Of a stretch of 34,278 nt of DNA, positions 10,152 to 17,644 are shown piece by piece. Every line of letters starts with the position of its first letter. The first letter of the stretch is position 1. The stretch comes from Acidobacteriota bacterium (GTDB taxonomy: Bacteria > Acidobacteriota > Vicinamibacteria > Vicinamibacterales > SCN-69-37). Location of the stretch: assembly GCA_021824055.1 (NCBI GenBank), contig JAKALV010000003.1, positions 1-34,278 of the forward strand, in the 5' to 3' direction. The translations under genes and the position numbers were made by a program. Below the pieces are notes generated by a model, which did no database searches, was not told the DNA's origin, and saw only the letters and a list, made by a program, of their open reading frames with translations.

Positions 10152-10189
10152 TTCGGAGTCCTGGGTCCGGCGTCCAGCGTCCATGGTGC
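10152..10189. repeat. degenerate GTCCnnn heptamer array (left member of an inverted pair)
   Basis: gtcctgggtccggcgtccagcgtcc: GTCC repeated at 7-nt spacing. Confidence 0.65.
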
Positions 10190-10285
10190 GTTCGGCCACG
10201 GTTCATTGTCCACACTTCTGCGCGGATCGCGCGCGCAAAATGCGCATCGCGCAGGAATGTCACGCGGATTGCGAACGTGGGATCC

Positions 10286-10325
10286 CGGACCCCGGACTCT
10301 GGACCCTGGACCCTGGACCCTGGAC
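10286..10325. repeat. GGACCCT heptamer tandem array (right member of an inverted pair)
   Basis: cggaccccggactctggaccctggaccctggaccctggac: perfect TGGACCC copies plus degenerate ones; inverse complement periodicity to 10152-10189. Confidence 0.85.
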
Positions 10326-11266
10326 TACCGAGCCGCGACGGGCGTGTTCACATACGTGAGCCAGCCGTGTTTGTCCGGCGTCTTGCCGTTCACGCAGTCG
10401 AAGAACGCCTGCTGAATCCTGGCCGTGATCGGGCCGCGCTTGCCTTCGCCGATCTTGATCTTGTCGACCGACCTGATCGGCGTCACTTCGACGGCCGTGC
10501 CGGCGAAGAACATCTCGTCGGCGATGTAGCAGAACTCGCGCGGCAGCGCCTGTTCCTTCACCGTGAGCCCCATGTCGTGCGCGAGCGTGATGATCGTGTC
10601 GCGCGTGATGCCGGGCAGCACGGAGGCCGCGATCGGCGGCGTGTAGAGGATCTGGTCGCGCACCAGGAAGATGTTCTGGCCGCTGCCTTCGCTGAGCTGG
10701 CCGCTCACGTCGAGCGCGATGCCCTCGCTGTACCCGTCGGCGACCGCTTCCATCTTGATGAGCCCGGAGTTTGCGTAGTTGGCGACCGACTTGGCCATCG
10801 CCGGGAACGTGTTGGGGGCGCTGCGCGTCCACGAACTGATCTTGACGTCGACGCCTTTCTCGACCGCTTCCGGCCCGAGATACGCGTCCCATTCCCAGAC
10901 GAGAATCATGGCGTCAATCGGGCAGGGGAGCGGGTTCACGCCGAGCGTGTTGTAGCCGCGGTAAATGAGCGGCCGGATGTAGCAGGCCTCGAAGCCGTTC
11001 GCCTTGATCGTGTCGATGACGCCCTGCGTCAACGCATCCTGGCTCTTGCCGTAGTCCATCCGGTAAATGCGCGCCGAGTCGTAGAGGCGCCGCATGTGCG
11101 CATCGAGACGGAAGCACGCCGAGCCCTGCGGCGTCTTGTAACAGCGCGCGCCTTCGAAGACGCCCGTGCCGTAATGAATCACGTGAGACGCCGCGTGGAT
11201 GGTGGCGTCAGCCCAATTGACCAGCTTGCCATTCATCCATACCTTGCCATTACGAGAGAAGGCCAT
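10325..11266 (-). CDS. ilvE: branched-chain amino acid aminotransferase (class IV PLP)
   Basis: 313 aa; GKVWMNGKLVNWADATIHAASHVIHYGTGVFEGARCY, SGLIKMEAVADGYSEGIALD, GQNIFLVRD, CYIADEMFFAGTAVEVTPIRSVD. Confidence 0.93.
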   Translation of the reverse strand: MAFSRNGKVWMNGKLVNWADATIHAASHVIHYGTGVFEGARCYKTPQGSACFRLDAHMRRLYDSARIYRMDYGKSQDALTQGVIDTIKANGFEACYIRPLIYRGYNTLGVNPLPCPIDAMILVWEWDAYLGPEAVEKGVDVKISSWTRSAPNTFPAMAKSVANYANSGLIKMEAVADGYSEGIALDVSGQLSEGSGQNIFLVRDQILYTPPIAASVLPGITRDTIITLAHDMGLTVKEQALPREFCYIADEMFFAGTAVEVTPIRSVDKIKIGEGKRGPITARIQQAFFDCVNGKTPDKHGWLTYVNTPVAAR

Positions 11267-12392: not shown

Positions 12393-13109
12393 ATGAGCGC
12401 TCCGCGTGTGCTTGTGCCCGATGTCGAGCCGCCGGAGGTGACGCTGCCGGCCGACGAAGCGCACCACGTCATGCAGGTGCTGCGGCTCGAGGCGGGCGAT
12501 CCGATCGTCGTGTTCGACGGCGCCGGCTGTGAATGGGACGCGCGCCTTGCCTCGGTGGCCAAGCGCGCCGTGACGGCCACAATCCTGCAGGCACGGACGC
12601 CCGTGCCCGAACCGGCGACGCGCGTGATCCTGGCCATCGGGCTGCTCAAGGGCGACGCGATGGATGAAGTGGTGCGCGATGCCACCGCGCTCGGGGTGGC
12701 GGCGATCGTCCCGATGATCACGACGCATTGCGTGGTGCCGAAGCGGGCGCGGGGCGACGAGGCGATCGCGCGGTGGAGGCGGGTGGCGGTGTCGTCGGCC
12801 AAGCAGTGTGGCCGCGCCACGTTGCCGGAGCTCCGGGCGCCGGCGCCGTTCCTCGACGTGTTGCGGGTGGCGGCCGACGTGAAGCTCATCTGTCTCGAGC
12901 CGACGTTTCCGGGAGTGTCGCTTCCGGCGTTCGCGACTGTGCCGCGCACGGCCCTCCTGCTGATTGGTCCGGAGGGCGGCTGGTCGCGTGACGAAGTCGC
13001 GTCGGCGCGCCTTGCGGGTTGTCAGGGACTGCAGCTGGGACCGCTGACCTTGCGCGCGGAACTCGCGCCGGCCGTCGCGCTCAGTCAGTTCTGGGCAGTA
13101 TTCAGTTAA
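12393..13109 (+). CDS. rsmE: 16S rRNA m3U1498 methyltransferase (RsmE)
   Basis: PADEAHHVMQVLRLEAGDPIVVFDG, LLKGDAMDEVVRDATALGVAAIVPMIT, AVSSAKQCGRATLPEL, LLLIGPEGGWSRDEV, LGPLTLRAELAPAVAL. Confidence 0.93.
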   Translation: MSAPRVLVPDVEPPEVTLPADEAHHVMQVLRLEAGDPIVVFDGAGCEWDARLASVAKRAVTATILQARTPVPEPATRVILAIGLLKGDAMDEVVRDATALGVAAIVPMITTHCVVPKRARGDEAIARWRRVAVSSAKQCGRATLPELRAPAPFLDVLRVAADVKLICLEPTFPGVSLPAFATVPRTALLLIGPEGGWSRDEVASARLAGCQGLQLGPLTLRAELAPAVALSQFWAVFS

Positions 13110-13355
13110 ACGTGGGTTGACGTAGGCGGCGGGCTTTAGAGCCCGAATGCGAGGATCAGGACGGACGAGAGCCAGTGCATTAACCGTGAAGCTCGTGAAG
13201 AACGTGAAGACGAAACTTGTTGGTTTTCTTCACGCCCTTCGCGTTCTTCACGGTAGATTGCCCTTGAAGGCAAGTAGTCGCTTTTAGCCCTGCGCACAAA
13301 CCGCAGGGCTGAAGATCCTGCGGCCACGTTAACTAACCCTATGTCAACCCACGTT
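13109..13355. repeat. 247-bp MITE-like intergenic element with terminal inverted repeats and internal hairpins
   Basis: TIRs 13109-13125 AACGTGGGTTGACGTAG and 13339-13355 CTATGTCAACCCACGTT (16/17). Internal 28-nt imperfect stem 13184-13211/13226-13253 made of CGTGAAGnn 9-mers; 9-bp perfect hairpin AGCCCTGCG/CGCAGGGCT 13286-13294/13302-13310. Confidence 0.8.
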
Positions 13356-13360
13356 CAGGG

Positions 13361-16903: not shown

Positions 16904-16993
16904 CGGCAATCGGGGAATCTCCAATCGGTAATCTGGGATCGCCAATCGGGCAATTGCGGAATCGGCTGATCGGGGAATCGGGGAATCGGCGGT
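16904..16993. repeat. degenerate GGGGAATC/CAATCGG array (left member of an inverted pair)
   Basis: Multiple caatcgg/ggaatcgg units ending gatcggggaatcggggaatcggcgg; 16969-16989 is the exact reverse complement of 17551-17571. Confidence 0.85.
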
Positions 16994-17395
16994 TCAGCTG
17001 CGCCGAGTGCGGCGCTTGAGTTCTCGATCCGCCGCCTCCCGGCGGCGCGCGGTTGATAGGGCTGCCGTCAGGATTGCCGTGAGCTCGGTGGCCTCGGCGT
17101 AGAGTCCGGCGTGATTGTCAGTGGCGTCCGACGGCACGGCCGCCGATTGCTCCAGGTACTTCAACCAGGCTTGGCTCTCATCGATTTCTTCCACGGCCAG
17201 GCCCAGCTTCGAGGTGAATTCGGCATGCGACCGGGCTCGCCCGGCTGACCGGTGATTGGCCATCGCCGATGACGCCGCGCGACTGAGTTGGCTGGCTGTG
17301 TCCCGCGTCGCGGGGTCCCTGAACAGCGGCCGGCAGAAGATGGCCACTGAAGCTGCGTAGTCGGCGAGGCGATCGCGAAGTTCCTGCGGAGTCAC
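16994..17395 (-). CDS. four-helix-bundle protein (S23/IVP-like) of unknown function
   Basis: 133 aa, GTG start, all-helical composition; ASQLSRAASSAMANHRSAGRARSHAEFTSKLGLAVEEIDESQAWLKYLEQSAAV resembles the stand-alone 23S-rRNA-intervening-sequence protein family. Recognised by pattern only. Confidence 0.8.
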   Translation of the reverse strand: MTPQELRDRLADYAASVAIFCRPLFRDPATRDTASQLSRAASSAMANHRSAGRARSHAEFTSKLGLAVEEIDESQAWLKYLEQSAAVPSDATDNHAGLYAEATELTAILTAALSTARRREAADRELKRRTRRS

Positions 17396-17518
17396 GCCCA
17401 GGTTGTGTGCACGGCGCCTGCCACACCCGGTCGCCCGAATTCCCGGGAATTCCGACGCCTCACGACCTCAGCGCGGCATTTATTGCACTCCTCAAGCCCG
17501 CGCCGGACGGCAAATTCT

Positions 17519-17644
17519 GCAATCCCCCAATTCCTCAATTCCTCAATTCCCCGATTCCCCGATTCCCCGATTCCCGATTCCCGATTCCCCGATTCCCGAT
17601 TCCCCAATTGGCAATCGAAGATTGCCGATTATCGATTCTCCGAT
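17519..17644. repeat. GATTCCC/GATTCCCC tandem array (right member of an inverted pair)
   Basis: aatcccccaattcctcaattcctcaattccccgattccccgattccccgattcccgattcccgattccccgattcccgattcccc: roughly a dozen 7-8-bp units between the PBP stop codon and the four-helix-bundle ORF. Confidence 0.92.

Follow-up and report, generated by a model that had tools for sequence, protein, structure and literature searches.

The locus between hrcA and mrcA in an Acidobacteriota genome, where a short open reading frame (ORF) lies between two tandem arrays in inverted orientation, raises the question of whether gene and arrays form one element, and of what kind. The window, which is the whole stretch of 34,278 bp that was analysed, belongs to a draft genome of 3.44 Mb (G000). 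In it, a 741-bp insertion with its gene on the minus strand occupies 16904-17644, from the hrcA promoter/CIRCE-like region to the mrcA stop codon. Read on the ORF strand, the insertion consists of an array of GGGGAATC-type units 5′ of the ORF (17644-17521; GATTCCC(C) on the plus strand), a two-box motif GCAN5TGC / GCAN5TGC with an exact spacing of 34 nt and possibly a hairpin fold (17520-17476), the ORF itself (17395-16994; 133 amino acids, GTG start, TGA stop) and, 3′ of the ORF, an inverted array of degenerate AATCGGGG/CAATCGG units with the G-rich strand inward (16990-16904). Both arrays are detected by Tandem Repeats Finder (scores of 107 for the 5′ array and 89 for the 3′ array), 17551-17571 is the exact reverse complement of 16969-16989 (21 bp), and the inverted-repeat score over the ORF is 73, as against a maximum of 35 among 70 control placements in the same window. 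The sequence-only reading, which had described a 133-aa minus-strand ORF between inverted GGGGAATC arrays, was correct to the base in its coordinates and in the 21-bp match. No Rfam match was found anywhere in the window, and the element sits outside rRNA. Its S23/IVP-type gene (hereafter IVP) is its only protein-family match; no transposase, recombinase or reverse transcriptase is encoded in it.

By profile as well as by fold, the ORF product genuinely belongs to the S23/IVP four-helix-bundle family. It matches PF05635 over the gathering score (E=1.7e-8) and TIGR02436, ‘four helix bundle protein’ (E=2.4e-13), in profile searches, and its AlphaFold2 model (pLDDT 97) has four long helices, for which the S23-family structures 2rld and 2gsc are the best matches, followed by Avd (4dwl), with 8ub7 also among the matches. 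The family matches and the hrcA-mrcA position bear out the earlier proposal of an IVS-like element of the IVP family outside rRNA. The window copy has the lowest profile score of the 11 full copies in G000. The protein is under purifying selection, with dN/dS of about 0.03-0.12 in close pairs, where dS is near saturation. Its solved relatives, which share the S23/Avd fold, are ring-forming. A phage origin of IVP was rejected, because none of 50,697 phage records matched at E<=1e-5; a match was found on 24 plasmids, cyanobacterial for the most part.

The limits of the insertion were set by alignment to the orthologous hrcA-mrcA spacer of G002, a genome of the same genus, in which this spacer is 48 bp long and free of arrays. 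This empty site confirms that gene and arrays are one discrete insertion, as had been supposed from the letters. The corresponding spacer of the same-genus genome G001 (233 bp) carries inverted arrays of the window's unit type and no gene, that of other genera is short and array-free (72-191 bp), and G003 and G007 have another gene at this place. A second G000 copy, which adjoins ridA on contig C179, is missing from both G001 and G002. Where G003 has an IVP copy, G007 has an inverted array with no gene beyond a remnant of the 3′ end of the ORF, so that gene-less elements can arise by internal deletion. The window itself contains a gene-less inverted GGGTCCA element at about 10157-10326, between ilvE-like and pilT-like genes, which G002 lacks and in place of which G001 has another array (GCAGATAG). 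In the filled/empty comparisons at two sites, the flanks of which have diverged, target-site duplication is not visible. Another small palindromic element is resembled by the nested inverted repeats at 13109-13358, in which an outer AACGTGGGTTGACGTAGG faces a near-identical inverted copy at 13337-13358 and the inner arrays CGTGAAGAA / TTCTTCACG enclose a short loop.

Arrays without a gene are also dispersed through the genomes. GGGGAATC occurs 129 times in G000, as compared with once for the reversed control, and about a dozen more solo or inverted arrays of this unit are present among the sites inspected. For GGGTCCAGGGTCC, 88 occurrences were counted in G000, 48 in G007, 29 in G013, 25 in G003 and 20 in G011, five each in G010 and G022, and none or one in the others, including the same-genus G001 and G002. 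In paired dispersed GGGTCCAGGGTCC arrays the plus-strand units come first and the minus-strand units follow, which is the same inward polarity. An IVP gene flanked by the GGGTCCA unit is present in G000, G007 and G013, the unit in G011 is merely similar, and no IVP gene with this unit was detected in G003, G010 and G022, despite their dispersed arrays. Gene-less arrays of one unit are found mostly in genomes holding a gene with that unit.

The association between gene and arrays is a general one. G000 harbors 11 IVP copies over the cut-off and one fragment, and inverted tandem arrays surround all eight copies with both flanks assembled; the remaining three (on C232, C286 and C82) have 206-317 bp to the contig end. 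Proximity to contig ends was noted for the copies on C232, C286, C82 and C355. A survey of the order (60 genomes) gave 80 testable copies, and for 61 of them the inverted arrays score higher than the 99th percentile of the controls, which were 1306 placements on the contigs that carry the IVP copies. Across about 20 phyla, inverted arrays exceed the local 99th percentile in 45 of the 78 copies scored out of 80 from one genome-collection scan, which picks copies with a conserved AA[VI]S[VI]P[SA]NI stretch and is not a random sample. Arrays in direct orientation flank eight of the 80 copies in the order and none of the 78 across phyla. With other ORFs in the same DNA and identical flank geometry as a stricter control, the counts are 62/82 for IVP copies against 6/456 for other ORFs in the order (p=3e-56), and 51/79 against 3/112 in the cross-phylum set (p=3e-22). 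Homologs lacking arrays had been named beforehand as evidence that would speak against such an element, and most homologs in the order and in the cross-phylum set (the 61 of 80 and 45 of 78 above) turned out to have them.

Clear arms are missing in 19 of 80 copies in the order and 33 of 78 across phyla, some of which are explained by contig ends; a location in rRNA was rejected as the reason, since 19 such array-less loci gave no Rfam hit. The closeness of IVP copies to contig ends suggests that arrays break short-read assemblies and are themselves undercounted. Xanthomonas, Dyella and Dokdonella carry the IVP gene between accB and accC (L164, L187, L193 and L198), with arms of GGGAATC, GGGAATA/GGGAATC and GGGATTC units. 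This is an old insertion between neighbouring genes that has kept its arms, and so stable a placement is more suggestive of a resident gene than of active mobility. In Nostoc (L191), AGGGGACAGGGAATAGGGGATAGG-type repeats near the IVP gene are like the known cyanobacterial heptamer repeats.

The arrays follow common rules of layout, and their units vary between copies. Most loci have a period of 7 bp and many one of 8 bp, the median arm length is 43 bp, and in 95 of 103 loci both ends have the G-rich strand pointing inward. In some cases one arm is a co-linear copy of the other, with common irregularities across 80-290 bp, a likeness beyond mere identity of the unit. Almost every IVP copy has its own unit, which is carried by both arms of the site; those in G000 are GGGTCCA, GGTGGCGCA, GGTCCAA, AGGGCAA, AAGGCAG, GGGGAATC, GTTCGGGG-type and longer ones. 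Given this variety, what matters is not GGGGAATC as such. A k-mer test of unit sharing within genomes, applied to all copies, gave no clear signal either way, with few loci per genome. At a common site in sister species of another genus, the unit is CGGGTCAC in G016 and CGGGAGTC in G028 and G038, and further pairs from the same comparison are TCGGCCT versus CGGCAGT and GTCATTG versus AGTCATG. Within each of these genomes the two arms agree, whereas arm scores across species are at or near background. The flanks of the common sites are about 83-89% identical and the ORFs 63-78%. Both arms can apparently turn over in concert at common sites, as judged from these alignments. The IVP proteins of G016 and G028 are mostly reciprocal best matches in the sample, yet only 44-59% identical, and the difference in unit could also reflect a swap for a related new element instead of turnover in place.

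In 554 kb of single-strand sequence of this genus, the GCAN5TGC two-box with its exact 34-nt spacing is confined to IVP loci and a single gene-less element; it could be an RNA hairpin or a protein site. The window copy matches the covariance model with 46 bits, being itself part of the training set. Three of six tested copies fold into a good hairpin (z -3.1 to -5.6); the window's own copy folds no better than shuffles (z -0.44), and covariation is weak to modest, 28 of 500 shuffles equalling the observed pairing. A hairpin as a universal part of the element was rejected, because most copies do not show the motif clearly, unlike those of this genus and a few others. Additional covariance-model matches in G000 (on C59, C139, C360, C108 and C281) were judged to be due to chance; alignment showed no flanking inverted array at C360 and one C139 match, and the matches on C59, C108 and the other on C139 were judged by eye from partial sequence. 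The C281 match lies in a Y1/RAYT-like transposase frame (L257) with GGCCGGACCTGAAGGTCCGGCC palindromes of its own, a REP-type system recognized by eye only.

Known systems resemble the element in part. The intervening sequences (IVS) of 23S rRNA in Coxiella and Leptospira are selfish rRNA inserts with complementary ends and an S23 ORF, and share with it the protein family, the short insert with complementary ends and a patchy, selfish-looking distribution (PMC4990558); the window element differs in lying outside rRNA, in having tandem heptamer arrays as ends, with a unit that changes by copy, and in the gene-less dispersed arrays. The RAYT (TnpA-REP)/REPIN system likewise combines a gene with inverted repeats and numerous inverted copies that lack the gene and are dispersed through its genome (PMC3116915, PMC8266576). 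Dispersed cognate gene-less copies exist here as well, for GGGGAATC in G000 and for GGGTCCA in G000, G007 and G013 (G003, G010 and G022 being exceptions). RAYT is, however, a Y1 transposase, whereas IVP is a four-helix bundle and PF05635 is the only Pfam match of the window ORF; moreover, IVP ends are tandem arrays rather than one conserved palindrome, with many unit families per genome. The GGGAATC / GGGGA(C/T)T G-quadruplex repeats of Xanthomonas and Nostoc have the window's unit and are mostly intergenic (PMC4692102). In Xanthomonas, GGGAATC arrays form 70-75 convergent inverted pairs per genome, with a function left open (Rehm et al., 2015, PMC4692102), and the window likewise has GGGNATC tandem units in convergent pairs; that work makes no link to S23/IVP and does not describe unit variety between loci or concerted change of the arms. 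The accessory protein Avd of diversity-generating retroelements (DGR) has the same fold as IVP (4dwl, 8ub7), but RVT_1 is missing from G000. The eukaryotic Foldback/Galileo transposons have long, internally repetitive terminal inverted repeats (PMC3573991), although Galileo encodes a P-superfamily transposase, and a classical transposon with terminal inverted repeats, or a MITE, is set apart by the lack of a transposase in the IVP element.

That the gene and its two arrays are one element is well supported. It most likely belongs to a class of DNA elements with gene-bearing and gene-less members that is functionally RAYT/REPIN-like and has no known recombinase. From the empty sites, the gene-less derivatives and the dispersed unit families we infer that the element is mobile; no transposition of IVP elements was observed. 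The evidence is about evenly balanced on a selfish or mobile-like element in which IVP binds its own arrays as cis sites while host replication and repair copy, rewrite and spread them. IVP would then be the element's own nucleic-acid-binding protein and the terminal inverted heptamer arrays its cis sites. Slippage during copying by host replication and repair would alter the unit inside one array, and the change would pass from one inverted arm to the other by template switching, so that both ends turn over together; template switching is described as a process that keeps inverted arms alike (PMC8794818, PMC7202029). Internal deletion would yield copies consisting of arrays only, and arrays of one unit would spread while the cognate IVP gene resides in the genome. 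Binding of IVP to the arrays, spread driven by IVP and the replication-based mechanism are steps that we infer.

If the arrays instead paired in the ORF transcript, the stem being cut by RNase III or bound by IVP, selection on pairing would keep them complementary. IVS elements do have complementary ends and are cleaved by RNase III (PMC4990558), arrays of this kind are mostly transcribed in Xanthomonas citri (PMC4692102), and the two-box hairpin folds in the three of six copies noted above. Such a stem, which the sequence-only reading had raised, is nevertheless unlikely: the unit is locus-specific, gene-less arrays are widespread, and the two-box of the window folds poorly and covaries weakly. 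Furthermore, mismatches between arms are G.U-compatible in 154 cases and incompatible in 181 (p=0.16), and those of the cross-phylum set lean in the opposite direction (51 compatible, 81 incompatible; p=0.011), a looser arm alignment having been discarded as noise. The lack of a G.U excess argues against a selected RNA stem and leaves room for a role of RNA. We consider it similarly improbable that slippage simply lets heptamer arrays grow anywhere, that quasi-palindrome template switching keeps inverted pairs uniform, and that IVP genes are only tolerated near them. Both processes have been described (PMC4692102, PMC8794818, PMC7202029), and arrays without genes are common, but three things are left unaccounted for: that most copies of one gene family are bracketed across phyla, compared with 1-3% of other ORFs; that the polarity is uniformly inward; and that genomes have specific unit families which for the most part go with an IVP gene.

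Addition of G-rich repeats at a break by a telomerase-like templated or reiterative polymerase, with the IVP element filling the gap, would by itself account for G-rich strands that point inward and for arms with the same unit, if it acted on both 3′ ends. The polarity (95:8), the usual period near 7 and the identical unit on both arms, site by site, agree with this scheme, which we still regard as rather implausible: searches of G000-G007 and of two complete genomes, G016 and G028, found no RVT_1, and the co-linear arms with common irregularities point to copying of one arm from the other. There is an equally slim chance that the elements are moved by an enzyme acting in trans, either a DGR-type reverse transcriptase or a Y1 transposase, for which the Avd fold of IVP and the Y1/RAYT-like frame with its own palindromes on C281 of G000, recognized by eye, can be cited. 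Against it, RVT_1 is missing from genomes with 10-12 IVP genes and from the complete genomes G016 and G028, which have 10 and 6 IVP copies, and the phage records searched contain no IVP at E<=1e-5. A reverse transcriptase in trans was rejected, as it is missing from several IVP-rich genomes.

The array layout around IVP genes in about 20 phyla points to a large class of mobile-like DNA elements that may have gone unrecognised. A full-text search limited to open-licence papers found none that links an S23/IVP gene to such arrays. With somewhat less than even confidence, S23/IVP can be proposed as the core of pan-bacterial, transposase-less mobile elements, the ends of which would be locus-specific, constantly rewritten inverted heptamer arrays, with bacterial G-rich heptamer repeats as gene-less descendants and 23S IVS as members that landed in rRNA. 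If this is true, a family with solved structures (2gsc, 2rld) but no known role would gain a function, or at least a context, and the abundance of G-rich heptamer arrays, the role of which was explicitly left open (PMC4692102), would be explained. The intervening sequences of rRNA would become a special case, and the simultaneous change of unit in both arms between sister species poses a directly testable puzzle of DNA replication.
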